From Gemmatimonadaceae bacterium (GTDB lineage Bacteria > Gemmatimonadota > Gemmatimonadetes > Gemmatimonadales > Gemmatimonadaceae), in NCBI GenBank assembly GCA_036496605.1, contig DASXKV010000006.1, forward strand, positions 1-64,000: DNA of 64,000 nt, given 5' to 3'. Position numbers and translations under genes: made by a program. A model generated the notes under the pieces. The model did no database searches. It saw only the letters and a list, made by a program, of their open reading frames with translations, and had not been told where the DNA came from. Below are positions 22,536 through 40,310 of the stretch, in pieces (positions within the stretch are counted from its first letter, which is position 1; each line of letters begins with the position of its first letter).

Positions 22536-23240
22536 GTGGCGACGGCTAACGTCTACACTCGCCGCTGGTTCTCCACCTTCCTCGGCCGGATCGACGCGGC
22601 GATCGTCGACCGCGAGATCGCGTTTCTACGCAGGCACCTGGCCGCGGGCGCGCGCGTGCTCGACCTCTGCTGCGGCACCGGCCGGCACGCGGCTCCGTTG
22701 AGCGACGCTGGATTCCGCATCGTCGGCCTCGATCGAGACGCGTCGGCATTACGCGACGCAAGATCGTGGGCGCCAGCCGCAGACTTCGTGCGCGCCGACA
22801 TGCGGCAGTTGCCGCTCGAGACAGGCAGCGTCGACGCAGCGATCTGCATGTGGCAGAGCTTCGGCCATTTGGATACTGAGGGTAACGAGGCCATCCTCGG
22901 CGGGCTGGCGCGCGTGCTGCTACCTAACGGTTGCCTGGTCATGGATCTCTATCACCTGGATTTTCACGCCGCGCACCAGGGCGAGCGAACGATCGAGCGC
23001 GATGGCGAGCGCGTGTTCGAATCGCGCCGGATGCATGGCGATCGGCTGCGCGCGACGCTGCGCTACGAGTCGAGCGGCGAGTCGGAGGAATTCGAGTGGC
23101 AGTTGTTCACACCCTCGGCCATTGGAGCAATGGCTCGGCGAGCTGGATTGGAGGTGCGGTTGGTTTGCGCCGAGTTCGACGAGCACGTTGCGGCGTCGAG
23201 CGAGCGGGCGAGGATGCAGCTTGTGTTTAGAGGGATGTGA
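22536..23240 (+). CDS. SAM-dependent methyltransferase
   Basis: A 234-residue class I methyltransferase with motif I VLDLCCGTGRHAAPLSDAG (41-59), motif II IVGLDRD, FVRADMRQLPLETGSVDAAICMWQSFGHLD and GCLVMDLYH. The small-molecule type without extra domains gives no substrate. The start is a GTG at 22536, 14 bp after the previous stop; the frame is open to 22311 only as an antisense/shadow extension. Confidence 0.85.
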   Translation: MATANVYTRRWFSTFLGRIDAAIVDREIAFLRRHLAAGARVLDLCCGTGRHAAPLSDAGFRIVGLDRDASALRDARSWAPAADFVRADMRQLPLETGSVDAAICMWQSFGHLDTEGNEAILGGLARVLLPNGCLVMDLYHLDFHAAHQGERTIERDGERVFESRRMHGDRLRATLRYESSGESEEFEWQLFTPSAIGAMARRAGLEVRLVCAEFDEHVAASSERARMQLVFRGM

Positions 23241-23280
23241 ACGGCGGAAACCGCGTGAACGGCGGTGCGAAGAGAAGGAT

Positions 23281-23685
23281 CTAGTGGACTGTAACTGAGA
23301 TAATGAGAGCAGATGCGAGAGCAGGCGCTTTCCACGCCAAAACAACAAAGCGCATTACGGATTCGACGGATGGACGGATGCTCCGGATCGCTCCGGATCG
23401 CTCCGCGAAGAGGACGACTCCGCCTGCCACGAGCCGGGAATATTTGTTAACTGCACACCGATTGAGCGTTGGTGGCGAATCGAGCGCTAGAGGCGTCCCG
23501 AGGCCCTAACAAAAATCGTCCGGGCTCGTTGCGCGCAGCTGGATCAAGCAAGGACCGAATCCGTTTGATCCGTGCTATCCGTCGAATCCGTAATACTTCT
23601 TTGTCATTGTGGCCTTTTCGGCTGGGCCAGTTTTGATATGGAGTCGGCAAGCCGTGCTCTCACAATCTCAATTACAGTCCACTAG
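23281..23685. mobile_element. 405-bp element with 31-bp terminal inverted repeats (MITE-like)
   Basis: The left end (23281-23311) and the reverse complement of the right end (23655-23685) match at 28 of 31 positions, both beginning CTAGTGGACTGTAA. A second perfect 18-bp inverted repeat lies inside (23354-23371 versus 23577-23594). No transposase or sizeable convincing gene lies between. The ends carry CTAG, which could be part of the element or of a target duplication. The element fills most of the 560-bp gap between the methyltransferase and efflux genes and could fold into a long hairpin. A MITE or a palindromic repeat unit are both possible. Confidence 0.72.
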
Positions 23686-23724
23686 TATCCGTGCCTTGTG
23701 GCTCGCCCCTAACAATTGATGCTA

Positions 23725-23755
23725 GATCCTGGGTCGCTTCGCTCCGGAGGATGAC
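23725..23755. repeat. Dispersed hairpin repeat (AGCGAAGCGA core), copy 2
   Basis: Contains TCGCTTCGCT, the reverse complement of the core of the elements at 2526 and 59614, flanked by GATCCT and AGGATGAC. It lies between the 405-bp element and the membrane-fusion gene at 23800. Confidence 0.55.
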
Positions 23756-23799
23756 AAAGCCTCTAGCGGACCCCTTCCCCGTTCCTACATTCGCGCACT

Positions 23800-25065
23800 A
23801 TGGGCAGCCCCACACCGCTGCACGACCTCTCCAAACTCCGTATCGATCGCGACGCGCCAACGGCCGGCGTGAGACGGGCAGTGATACGAAACGCGATCTT
23901 CGCGGTAATCGTGTTCGCTCTTGCCGCGGCCGTGCTTCTCGTTTTGCGCCAGCGATCGGTTGTGCCGGTGCAGACGATCGTCGCCGCCGTGTCGAACGAT
24001 CCTGGAGTGAAGAGCGGTTCCAGCGGCGCAACGAGCGTGACGGCCAACGGGTACATCGTCGCCCGCACGCGCGCGTCCGTGTCGTCCAAGGTTCCCGGAC
24101 GACTCGCGTACCTCGGCGTGAGCGAGGGATCATTCGTGACAGAAGGCGAGATCATCGCGCGACTCGAGAATGGCGATTACGCGGCGCAGGTCGCGGAGGC
24201 AAACGCGAACATCGCCACCAGCCATGCGCAGGTCGTCGAAGCGGAAGCGGATCGCGATCAGCAGCAAAGCGACGCGAAACGCTTGCGCGACATTCGCGTT
24301 CAGAACAAGCAGCTCGTATCGCAGCAGGAAGTGGATGCCGCCGAGACGAAGCTCGCGACCTCCGACGCGCGCGTGAAGGCGGCGCAAGCGCGCGTCATCG
24401 CGGCCGATGCATCGTTGCGTTTCGCGCAGGTGAATCTCGCGAACACCGAGATTCGTGCGCCGTTCACGGGTACGGTTTTGCGCAAGGAGGCCGAAGTTGG
24501 GGAGGTCGTCGCCCCGTCGGTGGGTGGCGGATTGACGCGCGGTGCGGTCGTGACGATGGCCGACCTCAAGAGCCTCGAGGTCGAGGTCGACGTGAACGAG
24601 GCATATATCGCGCGCCTGCACGGCGGACAAGCAGCGCGGATCACGCTCGATGCGTATCCGGACACGTCGTTCGCCGGCCACATTCGGCAGGTCGTGCCGA
24701 CGGCCGATCGGCAACGGGCGACGGTGCAGGTGAAGGTGACGATCGTCGATCGCGATCCCCGCATTCTGCCCGAAATGGGCGCGCGCGTCGATTTCCTCGA
24801 GCCCGAGGCGAAGCTCGCGGGCGCACCTGCGATCGCGTCGGCACCGCGAATTCGGGTTCCGGCCGCGGTCGTTCACGAAGAGAACGGCCAATCGATCGTG
24901 TGGCTCGTGCGCGACGGACGCCTCGAGTCGCGCGCCGTCGAGGCAGCGCCGACGAGCGCCGGGTTCCGAGAGATTCGCAAAGGACTCGCCGGCGGCGAGA
25001 TGTTACTGGCCGGCGGCGTCGATCAGCCGAAGACGGGGATGCGGGTGACGTTTACGAAACCCTAA
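23800..25065 (+). CDS. Membrane fusion (HlyD/MacA-like) subunit of an ABC exporter
   Basis: The 421-residue protein has one N-terminal membrane helix (about 28-48). A biotinyl-lipoyl-like hairpin is split by a helical coiled-coil (VSSKVPGRLAYLGVSEGSFVTEGEIIARLENGDYAAQV, then about 125-205 rich in Ala/Gln/Glu). The second half follows (ANTEIRAPFTGTVLRKEAEVGEVVAP) with a beta-barrel segment (DLKSLEVEVDVNEAYIARLHGGQAARITLDAYP). It would link inner-membrane permeases to an outer-membrane channel or act alone. It is the first gene of the cluster through 28114. No TolC-like gene is nearby. Confidence 0.92.
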   Translation: MGSPTPLHDLSKLRIDRDAPTAGVRRAVIRNAIFAVIVFALAAAVLLVLRQRSVVPVQTIVAAVSNDPGVKSGSSGATSVTANGYIVARTRASVSSKVPGRLAYLGVSEGSFVTEGEIIARLENGDYAAQVAEANANIATSHAQVVEAEADRDQQQSDAKRLRDIRVQNKQLVSQQEVDAAETKLATSDARVKAAQARVIAADASLRFAQVNLANTEIRAPFTGTVLRKEAEVGEVVAPSVGGGLTRGAVVTMADLKSLEVEVDVNEAYIARLHGGQAARITLDAYPDTSFAGHIRQVVPTADRQRATVQVKVTIVDRDPRILPEMGARVDFLEPEAKLAGAPAIASAPRIRVPAAVVHEENGQSIVWLVRDGRLESRAVEAAPTSAGFREIRKGLAGGEMLLAGGVDQPKTGMRVTFTKP

Positions 25066-36984: not shown

Positions 36985-38772
36985 ATGTCCATCTCTCGAC
37001 GCTCTTTCGTTCTGAGTGCTGGGACCACACTCGCTGCGCTCGCAGGCTCGCCGCGGTTGATGTTGCCCTGGCGTCGACGCTACGCACTCGTCATTCGCGG
37101 CGGCACCGTCTACGACGGCCTCGGTGATCACGGCGTCGAGGCCGACGTTGCGATCGAGGACGGACGCATCGTCGCGATCGGGCCGAATCTCAAGGATGAA
37201 GGCGCAGTCGAGATCGACGCGCGCGGCATGGCGGTGGCGCCAGGCTTCATCGACATTCACTCTCATGGCGACGGCTCGCTCTGGGAGGATCCACGCGCCG
37301 AGTCGATCGTTAGGCAGGGCGTCACCACGATCGTCGTTGGCCAGGACGGTTCGTCGCGAGCACCAATGGGCGGCACCCCGGACGAAGAGAATGGGCGACA
37401 CTCGTTCCAGCGCTTCTCCGCCTTCTGGGATTCTCTGAAGACGCTCCAGCCCAGCGTCAATGTCGCGTCGATGGTGGGACTTGGGACCATCCGCGGCATC
37501 GTCATCGGAAACGTCAACCGGCCGGCGACAGCTGACGAGATCGTGCGCATGACGCAGCTCGTCGAGCAAGCGCTCGGCGACGGCGCGTGCGGCGCGTCGT
37601 CGGGACTCGAGTACACGCCCGGCGCTTTCGCGACGCGCGATGAGCTGATCGCGCTGTGCAGACCGCTCGCGTCGCGACACTTGCCTTACGCGACGCACAT
37701 GCGCAACGAAGACGATCACGTCGTCGAGGCGATCGACGAATCGATCGCGGTTGCCGCGGGCGCGAACTGCCCACTCCAGATCTCGCATCTCAAGACCGAG
37801 GGCCCTCGCAACTGGCACAAGCTCGACGAGATTTTCCTGCACATTCATCGAGCGCGCGGAGGGCTGGACGTCGCGGCGATTCCTGCTGGTGAATCCAAGG
37901 GAGCAGCAACCACGAGAAAACGCGGGACGACGTCGTCGGCTCGCAGTCACCGAGCGCCGGCGCGAGCGCCGGCCGCGTCGAAGTCGCCCGACGCGCCGGG
38001 AATCGACGTCGCCTTCGATCGCTATCCGTACATCGCGTATCAGACGGGATTGAGCAATCTCTTCCCGGTCTGGAGCCGCGACGGCAGCACGGACGACTTT
38101 CTCCGCCGGCTCGATGATCCGGCCACGTCCGAGAGGATCCGCCGCGAAACGGTGGCCAAGGTCGAGCTCATCGGTGGCTGGGACAACGTCGAGATCAGCG
38201 GCATCAGTAACTACGCCGACATGGCGGCCGACGGCAAGCACATCGGCAGTTTCGCAAAGACTCAACAGCTCGAGCCGTACGCCCTGGCCGTCGCGCTGCT
38301 CCAGCGCGGCAAGGGCAACGTCGGCATGGTGGGCTTCGCGATGAGCGAGGACAATCTCGAACGGATCCTCGCGCATCCCCAGGGCATGGTCTGCTCCGAC
38401 GGCGGCGCCTACGCGTTCGACGGTCCCACGCACAATGGTCATCCGCATCCACGCGGCCTCGGGACATTCCCGCGTGTGTTAGGCAGATACGTGCGCGACA
38501 AGAAGGCGCTGAGCCTGGCGAGCGCCATCCACAAGATGAGCGGGTTCCCTGCCTCGCGGATCGGGCTCACGGATCGCGGCCGCCTCGCAAGGGGTATGGC
38601 GGCCGACGTGGTCGTCTTCGACCCGTCGACGGTCGAGGACAAGGCGACTTACGAACAGCCGTTCCAGTACCCAGTCGGAATCAAAGCCGTGATCGTCAAT
38701 GGAGTCGTTGCGCTGCGCGACGGACAGCGTAGCAAAGACCGATCCGGTCAGGGGATTGCGACAAGGGGCTAG
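36985..38772 (+). CDS. N-acyl-D-amino-acid deacylase-family protein, Tat-exported
   Basis: The 595-residue protein begins with a twin-arginine signal (SRRSFVLSAGTTLAALAG). The deacylase domain has the metal motif GFIDIHSHGDGS (His92, His94), GACGASSGLEYTPGAFA, CPLQISHLKTEG, a late VCSDGGAYAFDGPTHNGHPHPRGLGTFPRVLGRYV and KMSGFPASRIGLTDRGRL. These match D-aminoacylases, which hydrolyse N-acyl-D-amino acids. An Arg/Ala/Ser-rich stretch of about 46 residues (about 297-342) interrupts the domain before DRYPY and looks inserted. The TAG stop is supplied by a GGGGCTAGGGG repeat. It converges with the PLP decarboxylase. Confidence 0.88.
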   Translation: MSISRRSFVLSAGTTLAALAGSPRLMLPWRRRYALVIRGGTVYDGLGDHGVEADVAIEDGRIVAIGPNLKDEGAVEIDARGMAVAPGFIDIHSHGDGSLWEDPRAESIVRQGVTTIVVGQDGSSRAPMGGTPDEENGRHSFQRFSAFWDSLKTLQPSVNVASMVGLGTIRGIVIGNVNRPATADEIVRMTQLVEQALGDGACGASSGLEYTPGAFATRDELIALCRPLASRHLPYATHMRNEDDHVVEAIDESIAVAAGANCPLQISHLKTEGPRNWHKLDEIFLHIHRARGGLDVAAIPAGESKGAATTRKRGTTSSARSHRAPARAPAASKSPDAPGIDVAFDRYPYIAYQTGLSNLFPVWSRDGSTDDFLRRLDDPATSERIRRETVAKVELIGGWDNVEISGISNYADMAADGKHIGSFAKTQQLEPYALAVALLQRGKGNVGMVGFAMSEDNLERILAHPQGMVCSDGGAYAFDGPTHNGHPHPRGLGTFPRVLGRYVRDKKALSLASAIHKMSGFPASRIGLTDRGRLARGMAADVVVFDPSTVEDKATYEQPFQYPVGIKAVIVNGVVALRDGQRSKDRSGQGIATRG

Positions 38773-38880
38773 GGGTTAGGGGCATAGGGTTACGGGCATA
38801 GGGGCTAGGGTCAGGCAAACGGACCTCTGTGCGCAGGCCCTAGTCCCTGACCCCTAACCCCTACCTAACCCCTAACCCCT
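38763..38880. repeat. Paired telomere-like arrays between convergent genes
   Basis: Plus-strand G-rich units (GGGGCTA, GGGGTTA, GGGCATA) occupy 38763-38814. Their C-rich counterparts, G-rich on the minus strand, occupy 38838-38880, with about 23 bp between. The plus-strand deacylase stop (38770-38772) and the minus-strand decarboxylase stop (38865-38867) both fall inside the arrays. Each gene thus has multiple G-tracts on its own coding strand at its 3' end. It may be a bidirectional transcription or mRNA-end element. Confidence 0.8.
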
Positions 38881-40310
38881 TCGCACACGACGGCCATGAG
38901 CTGGTCAATGTCCGCCTCGGTCGTCCGCCAGTTGTGCGTGCAGACGCGCAGCGAGAACACGCCGTTGATCTTCGTCGAGGAAATCAGGAATCGGCCATGC
39001 TCGTTGACGCGTGCGTTCACGCGCTCGTTGAGCGCATCGAGCTCGGCGCGGTCGTCGACGCCGGAGGGATGAGCCCGAAAGCAGAGGATCCCGAGCTGCG
39101 CCGGTGCCAGCACCTCCAGCGACGCCGCGCGCCTAACGATTGATTCGGCGTACTCGGCCAGCTGCATGCCCCGCTCGATCATTGCGCGGATCGGCGCGAG
39201 GCCGAACGTGCGAACGGAAAGCCAGATCTTGAGCGCTCGTGAGTAGCGAGTGAGCTGCTCGCCGTAGTCGGCGAAGTTCACCTCCTCTTCTCCCGGCGCA
39301 ACGTCCTTCAGGTATTCCGGGAAGATGTGAAAGGCCGACTTCAACGTCCCCGGATCACGCGCCAGAAGACCCGCACACTCGAATGGAACGAAGAGCCATT
39401 TGTGCGGATCGAGGACGACCGAGTCGGCGCGCTCGATCCCGCGCAGCATGTCAGCGCCGCGCGACGTCAACGCGGCGAAGGCGCCGTACGCCGCGTCCAC
39501 GTGCAGCCAGAGCGACTCGCGCTCGCAGAGTGCCGCGATGCCCGGTAAATCGTCGACGGCACCGGTATTCGTCGTCCCCGCGCTGGCGACGACGCAGAAG
39601 GGAACAAGGCCAGCTTCCTGATCGCCGGCGACCGCGTCGCGCACCGTGTCCGCGCGGAGCCGCCAGCAGTCGTCAGTTGGCAGCACGCGCACGTTGTGTC
39701 GCGAGATACCGGCGATCCACGCCGCCCGCGCAACCGCCGAATGCGCCTGTGAGGAAGTGTAGAGAGTGAGTCGAGGGAGGAGTGAAGCGTCCTCGCCCGC
39801 GCGCGCATGCCGCGCCGCCACAACGGCCATGAGCGTCGCGGTCGAGCCGCCCGAGGTCAGCAGTCCGCTCGTCCCGTTAGGCATCGCAAGCCATTGTCGG
39901 AACCAGTCGAGCACGACGAGCTCGATCTCGTTCGGGCCAGACGCGATCGGCCACACCCCGGCGAAGAAGTTGTAGCCCGTCGCAAGCCAATCGCCCAGCA
40001 CCGAGGGAAATGTCGGAATGCTCGGGACGTAGCCAAGAAAGTGCGGATGCGGCTCGCGTGCGTGATAGGGGAGCACGCGCTCCGCCAACTCGTCGAGTGC
40101 GCGATCGAAGCCGATTCCCTGCTCCGGCGCCGTCGGTGCGATCGCGCCAACGATCTGCTTCGCCTCACCGCGTGAGAGTGTTGTTCGCGCCGGTTGGTCG
40201 CGCAGCGACGCCAGATGACTGGTAACGAGGTCGGAGACGCGCGTCGCCATCGCGCGCATCGTGTCGCGGTCGACTTCGAGAGGGGAAACCCAGGTCTCTG
40301 TCTCTGCCAT
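38865..40310 (-). CDS. PLP-dependent decarboxylase (aromatic amino acid decarboxylase-like)
   Basis: A 481-residue group II decarboxylase. HFLGYVPSIPTFPSVLGDWLATGYNFFAGVW is the substrate-entry segment, LLTSGGSTATLMAVVAAR binds phosphate, SSQAHSAVARAAWIAG carries the stacking His, LHVDAAYGAFA the Asp (272) and VLDPHKWLFVPFECAG the Schiff-base Lys304. It probably decarboxylates an aromatic or other L-amino acid; the exact substrate cannot be read. I use the start at 40310 (MAETETWVSPLEVD); an upstream start at 40358 adds a non-conserved lead. The last residues GVRG and the TAG stop are encoded by the GGGGTTA repeat. Confidence 0.9.
   Translation of the reverse strand: MAETETWVSPLEVDRDTMRAMATRVSDLVTSHLASLRDQPARTTLSRGEAKQIVGAIAPTAPEQGIGFDRALDELAERVLPYHAREPHPHFLGYVPSIPTFPSVLGDWLATGYNFFAGVWPIASGPNEIELVVLDWFRQWLAMPNGTSGLLTSGGSTATLMAVVAARHARAGEDASLLPRLTLYTSSQAHSAVARAAWIAGISRHNVRVLPTDDCWRLRADTVRDAVAGDQEAGLVPFCVVASAGTTNTGAVDDLPGIAALCERESLWLHVDAAYGAFAALTSRGADMLRGIERADSVVLDPHKWLFVPFECAGLLARDPGTLKSAFHIFPEYLKDVAPGEEEVNFADYGEQLTRYSRALKIWLSVRTFGLAPIRAMIERGMQLAEYAESIVRRAASLEVLAPAQLGILCFRAHPSGVDDRAELDALNERVNARVNEHGRFLISSTKINGVFSLRVCTHNWRTTEADIDQLMAVVCEGVRG

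Follow-up and report, generated by a model that had tools for sequence, protein, structure and literature searches.

The 405-bp palindrome at positions 23281 to 23685 of the window (the whole stretch of 64,000 nucleotides that was analysed, located on contig C6 of a 5.97-Mb genome assembled in 70 contigs and 97% complete) is probably a fossil nest, in which an IS630-type MITE lies at a TA within a host palindrome (R), and itself carries an inner hairpin (P1) of a class of word palindromes linked to GxxExxY and S23 genes. Three repeats lie inside one another (Table 1), in place of the single element with nested repeats proposed in a sequence-only reading of this DNA. The TA is duplicated with respect to paralogous copies of R, the outer ends are those of an IS630 element, P1 recurs as a family, and P1 sequence is physically linked to GxxExxY genes.

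Table 1. Features of the composite palindrome, named according to the reading preferred here (window coordinates)
Feature	Position	Strand	Evidence
Left remnant of R, with the target TA as its last bases (intact copies: TGTCATCCTGAGCGAAGCGAAGGATCTA)	23267–23283	+	joined-flank alignment
TA target-site duplication, left copy, inside CTAG	23282–23283	.	removal of the element and one TA restores R
Left TIR of IS630-type MITE	23281–23311	+	28/31 to right TIR
IS630-type MITE body with inner hairpin	23284–23682	.	near-complete composite copy on C37
Inner hairpin P1: ACGGAT words at 9-bp spacing, GGCCACAATGAC at its right end	23335–23614	.	nhmmer arm model
P1 layout: words, non-repetitive core, inverted return	23335–23614	.	
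18-bp perfect inner repeat, left arm	23354–23371	+	18/18 match
18-bp perfect inner repeat, right arm	23577–23594	-	18/18 match
Right TIR of MITE	23655–23685	-	28/31 match to left TIR
TA target-site duplication, right copy	23683–23684	.	joined-flank alignment
Right remnant of R, loop and right arm	23685–23756	+	joined-flank alignment

Recomputation recovers both inverted repeats as first described, the outer arms being complementary at 28 of 31 positions and the inner arms at all 18. When all ungapped 31-bp pairs spanning no more than 700 bp are considered, the outer pair is the only one in the 64-kb window to reach 28 matches, and three dinucleotide shuffles of the window contain none at that level. 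The element proper measures 399 bp between the TA copies on either side. The lack of coding capacity is borne out, with no ORF of at least 80 aa wholly within the 405 bp. The element is located between protein-coding ORFs, a methyltransferase-like gene and an efflux operon, and 114 bp separate it from the efflux adaptor ORF (23800–25065).

The sequence-only reading suggested a MITE or a long-hairpin intergenic element, to be followed by a search for further copies, for a full-length partner with the same ends and for an empty site. Further copies are present in the source genome. The 405-bp sequence gives 13 matches there, several of them at C37:20620–20846, which is a second near-complete composite having both outer arms in common with the window copy. 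The outer arms of the two are 94% and 98% identical (88% and 92% for the longer matches); in the C37 composite the inner hairpin is shortened and the tip of the right TIR is lost. A short MITE-like element at C18:36427–36524 differs in its interior; its right end is exact and its left end degenerate. In addition, degenerate single ends are found at C30:3958, C30:135754 and C45:18077. The end at C30:135754–135983 is followed by the start of an ORF resembling IS110, truncated by the end of the contig. Most TIR matches with two mismatches were dismissed as chance (10, compared with 18 for a reversed control pattern), and several of them fall within coding-looking sequence. A plasmid collection searched with the 405-bp sequence returned no match.

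With at most five candidates scored per genome, the outer arms are matched in 4 of 148 genomes of the family including the source genome; on the same basis the matches in the other 147 are the end of an insertion sequence in G115, a lone end close to a contig end in G134, and 19 bp in G012. The G115 match belongs to a complete IS630 element of 1,125 bp (L048:4923–6047), with a terminal CTAG on either side and the CTAGTGGACTG ends of the window element, encoding a transposase of 355 aa with DDE_3 (88.7 bits) and HTH domains. A full-length counterpart is found, in a relative and with its transposase. Both ends of this element are identical to the left end of the window element over the first 16 and 18 bp. 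The left TIR of the window matches the right end of the G115 element at 28 of 31 positions and its left end at 25 of 31, and the right TIR matches the two ends at 25/31 and 22/31. A transposase match at 1e-20 occurs in 28 of the 148 family genomes. The source genome is not among them, and a DDE_3 search of it (97% complete) found no IS630 transposase. Where the transposase is at least 57% identical, a CTAGTGG-type end is present on one or both sides at 11 of 11 loci (L062–L070, L082 and L083; one 71% fragment, G115:C11, left out). Among more distant transposase loci, several carry CTAGTGT-type ends, and many yielded no pair of ends.

With TIRs that match an IS630 element, a TA duplication, more than one genomic copy and a short body without a transposase gene, the outer layer is, on these features, an IS630/Tc1-type MITE. 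The earlier suggestion of a MITE holds for this layer, through its copies, the same-ended IS630 relative and the paralogous empty site described below. The outer element would have been moved by an IS630/Tc1-mariner-type transposase acting in trans, by cut-and-paste of a mini element with CTAGTGGACTGTAA ends. Without a transposase of its own kind to act on it, the copy in the window can probably no longer move.

R is a family of palindromes of 94–102 bp (around 95 bp) with the form TGTCATCCTGAGCGAAGCGAAGGATC..GATCCTTCG..CTCAGGATGACA and a loop of around 40 bases, with copies at C6:65278–65371, C50:205744–205834, C37:5053 and C14:82959. The copy in the window is degenerate, with a left arm of only around 17 bp. 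When its flanks are joined (the window up to the first TA, resumed after the second, 124 bp), they align across the junction to R at C50:205834–205744 (76% over 92, E = 1.2e-8), at C14:82969–83054 (73% over 86, E = 4.3e-8) and at C6:65360–65278 (73% over 89, E = 1.5e-7). The right flank by itself reaches E = 1.3e-5 to R copies, and the left flank by itself has no R match. The C37 copy (junction GGATC/GAGTGG) and the end at C30:3971 (GGATC/TAGTGG) lie at the same edge of R. The mini element would have landed in a TA at the edge of the loop of an R of around 95 bp, with duplication of the TA. The suggested empty site was thus obtained in part: a site with a single TA exists and is, from these alignments, paralogous and not orthologous, and no orthologous empty site was found among the relatives compared. 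The efflux adaptor has no match at 1e-30 in G001 and G002, which are incomplete drafts, and in G004 and G041 the DNA upstream of the adaptor differs from that of the window.

The inner hairpin P1 is built of ACGGAT words 9 bp apart and spans about 280 bp with GGCC..GGCC ends. An nhmmer search with an arm model made from five copies in the source genome gave 14 strong matches, corresponding to seven places, in 1.62 Mb of whole or nearly whole contigs, or 27% of the genome; these contigs had been picked by earlier matches, hence the density of P1 copies is not representative. Four weak matches to the model (E 0.09–0.8) were set aside as chance. Gene-less P1 hairpins are present in the window, on C37, and at C8:26942, C18:5676 and C50:245259, the last three without MITE ends. 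At C8:36806–37347 and C4:58922–59136 the P1 arms are inside out relative to the gene-less form. No target duplication was seen at P1 copies. A preference of P1 for the tips of palindromes was rejected as a rule: three of the five gene-less copies are not nested in another palindrome, and the two that are, in the window and on C37, share one history. P1 is thus a repeat separate from the MITE, and it is to this layer, found elsewhere without MITE ends, that the description as a long-hairpin intergenic element applies. The mini element would at some point have taken up the unrelated palindrome P1, and the composite would then have moved at least once, since the MITE/P1 junctions in the window are the same as those of the other near-complete copy on C37; the uptake of P1 would thus predate at least one jump of the MITE.

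P1 arms flank a gene at C8:36903 (45.9 and 44.1 bits) that encodes a GxxExxY protein (PF13366, 109 bits; TIGR04256, 105.7 bits). The protein contains the motifs GHFEHVY and D..EVK, the latter of which we take to be a nuclease signature. A palindrome of P1 type abuts another GxxExxY gene, at C39:15468, on one side only; it aligns with the C18 copy of P1 (72% over 204 bp, E = 3.5e-21). P1 sequence therefore flanks or abuts two of the five GxxExxY genes of the source genome, and the arm sequence common to these two loci places the P1 of the window in the GxxExxY-linked class.

Other repeats of the source genome (G000) have some of the same components. A second MITE-like family, with CTAAGTAGGTGGACAAAAGTCTTGCTACAAA ends, is present at C4:15027–15431 and C45:18257–18454, and the C4 copy encloses a CCGCTGAAACCGCTGAC word hairpin. 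A hairpin of that kind also occurs at C30:3654–3883, near a MITE end, and the C4 and C30 hairpins both match the flanks of a GxxExxY gene at C18:520. Heptamer hairpins of GGGGTTA type are found at 38763–38881 of the window and at C4:32733–33082; they have a G-rich 5′ arm and a C-rich 3′ arm, and hence show this order on either strand.

The source genome contains 5 GxxExxY and 11 S23 genes, and genes of both families are often bracketed by inverted word repeats. When each gene is scored by the strongest inverted repeat formed between its 350-bp flanks, 10 of the 16 loci (8/11 S23 and 2/5 GxxExxY) lie above all 297 control ORFs (maximum 29.2 bits; 297 of 300 sampled ORFs had flanks, and such ORFs need not be genes). 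The same ten also exceed all 232 predicted genes of 105–200 aa on the same contigs (232 of 237 having full flanks), where a single value is greater than 30 bits (31.9, the maximum) and is again a word repeat. Of the five GxxExxY loci, three do not reach the highest control value, and two of these rank in the top 3%. Of the remaining four of the 16 loci, L194 lies at the end of a contig and yields no score, and the others are unremarkable.

In relatives the tested genes were high-scoring ones, the loci being taken from the best matches, and 39 of 57 reach at least 30 bits (GxxExxY 18/30, S23 21/27; two of 59 loci, with flanks shorter than 150 bp, were left out). The same level is reached by 43 of 3192 mismatched left–right pairs and by 3 of 77 control ORFs taken at those loci; a single test locus (L255) accounts for two of the three. 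A second sample of GxxExxY genes, from the phylum and likewise made up of high-scoring genes, gave a lower rate, with 5 of 18 at 30 bits or more against 4 of 306 in the comparison set (L288 and L289, which are truncated, being excluded). The association of GxxExxY genes with palindromes is thus far from universal. The arms of S23 loci are mostly clean tandems of 7 or 8 bp (14 of 21, by reading), and those of GxxExxY loci are looser, with words spaced by 8 to 10 bp wherever a period can be made out. Arm sequence is common to gene-less hairpins of the source genome at 11 of 15 of its gene loci (the S23 locus L194 left out, and near-identical long matches dropped as self-matches), compared with 3 of 59 loci from relatives and with 5 of 60 positions drawn at random from the source genome. 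Some of the shared gene-less hairpins adjoin the gene itself.

On plasmids, 12 of 16 matches were examined (H5, H11, H15 and H16 left out), and the scores stand without a control set. Six of seven plasmid S23 genes have 42.8–58.1 bits (Anabaena, two Nostoc, Calothrix, Geminocystis and Gemmatirosa). The S23 gene of the Nostoc HK-01 plasmid has no flanking inverted repeat. The five plasmid GxxExxY genes range from Gemmatirosa (196 bits, a match that partly runs into apparently similar gene ends on both sides) through Sphingomonas (37.4) and Bernardetia (33.7) to Fusobacteria and Persicobacter (below 23 bits). In Gemmatirosa kalamazoonensis plasmid 1 (L265) two complete GGACTGAAGAA-word hairpins with CCACGTACGTGG-like ends lie around the GxxExxY gene. 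On plasmid pANA02 of Anabaena sp. 90 (L258) the S23 gene, flanked by repeats of the word AGGTGAC, lies between cas6 and cas4 and beside cas1d in a type I-D CRISPR locus; this fits the reported presence of 23S_rRNA_IVP genes in cas loci (PMC3936711).

The S23 protein matches XCC0516 (PDB 2gsc, E = 1.7e-12), and a phmmer search of the PDB with the GxxExxY protein gave a chance match only (E = 0.24). In searches of openly available papers, preprints apart, no report of the bracket structure around S23 or GxxExxY genes was found. GxxExxY is mentioned in passing (PMC8934634), and 23S_rRNA_IVP genes are reported in CPR rRNA insertions (PMC11270868).

P1 would then be a gene-less word palindrome, with arms of short tandem words, and the GxxExxY (PD-(D/E)XK-like) or S23 four-helix-bundle genes that other word palindromes bracket or abut are taken as their partners. 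GxxExxY proteins, nuclease-like by family, would most likely work on DNA palindromes and drive the spread of P1-type hairpins, the gene-less copies of P1 being passengers or solo remnants. More broadly, S23 or GxxExxY proteins may act in spreading word palindromes. We extend this only tentatively, leaning slightly against it, to a bacterial class of mobile word palindromes with S23, GxxExxY or gene-less forms, which would include many long intergenic hairpins. The intervening sequences of rRNA would then be those few members that came to lie in rRNA helices, and the GxxExxY protein would cut or join palindromes.

Word palindromes might instead grow in place by slippage and foldback repair, with S23 and GxxExxY genes landing inside or close to them and having no part in their spread. 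Arms made of tandem words, the many loci with a word of their own and the lack of a visible target duplication are as expected for such growth, and inverted pairs of Xanthomonas heptamers are reported to be generally not tied to mobile elements (PMC4692102). It is less readily reconciled with the non-repetitive core common to P1 copies at scattered sites, with the matches between gene-bearing arms and gene-less hairpins of the same genome, or with the recurrence of the same bracket structure in cyanobacteria. We consider growth in place doubtful, if still a serious possibility.

The whole palindrome could also be a single long hairpin kept by selection as a device at the RNA level, as a terminator, an RNase III site or an mRNA stabiliser. 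It has a very stable fold on both strands (z = −9.7 on the plus strand and −10.5 on the minus strand, each beating 100 of 100 of its own shuffles), and its intergenic position before the efflux operon would suit such a function. Against this, copies occur at other genomic sites, and by reading no such palindrome lies upstream in the two best efflux-adaptor relatives. An Rfam scan of 23000–24000 gave nothing up to E = 1. A scan around the palindrome found no sigma-70-like promoter nearby and one terminator-like site, and terminator-like sites are about as many in shuffles. Such a device is thus improbable. That P1 is simply the interior of the MITE is very improbable indeed, as P1 with the same GGCC..GGCC ends stands without MITE ends at three places and the short C18 element has a different interior, the shared junctions of the window and C37 copies notwithstanding.

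On the preferred reading of a nest, an odd palindrome is resolved into ordered layers, the outer one with a named engine. Orphan hairpins become tied to two families of unknown function, S23 (four-helix bundle) and GxxExxY, and it becomes possible to test where such hairpins, and perhaps also rRNA intervening sequences, come from.

Among known systems, the outer layer is closest to the MITEs of the IS630/Tc1-mariner group, with its TA duplication, its TIRs and a same-ended DDE transposase in a relative. For ISY100, an element of IS630 type, insertion takes place at TA, which is thereby duplicated (PMC2170065). The window element differs in having an unrelated palindrome as cargo, in lying inside a third palindrome, and in belonging to a genome without a detected cognate transposase.

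REP/REPIN systems consist of extragenic palindromes with a gene-bearing partner (RAYT transposases), and P1 would resemble them in both respects. REPs are 20–40 bp long (PMC3733652). P1 lies outside that size range at around 280 bp, and differs also in its words spaced by 9 bp and its GGCC ends. The heptamer repeats of cyanobacteria are named STRR. Those of Xanthomonas (GGGAATC) often occur as inverted pairs (PMC4692102). P1 is like both in its short G-rich tandem words, and unlike them in that these are 9 bp apart. The terms S23 and intervening are absent from the main text of two papers on heptamer repeats (PMC4692102 and PMC4679880).

Intervening sequences of 23S rRNA (e.g. in Coxiella) are stem-loops with an S23 ORF in the loop that have replaced the small tetraloop of helices (PMC4990558). 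The S23 word palindromes of this study have the same plan. The window element contains no S23 ORF and lies outside rRNA, and its inner hairpin is linked instead to GxxExxY.
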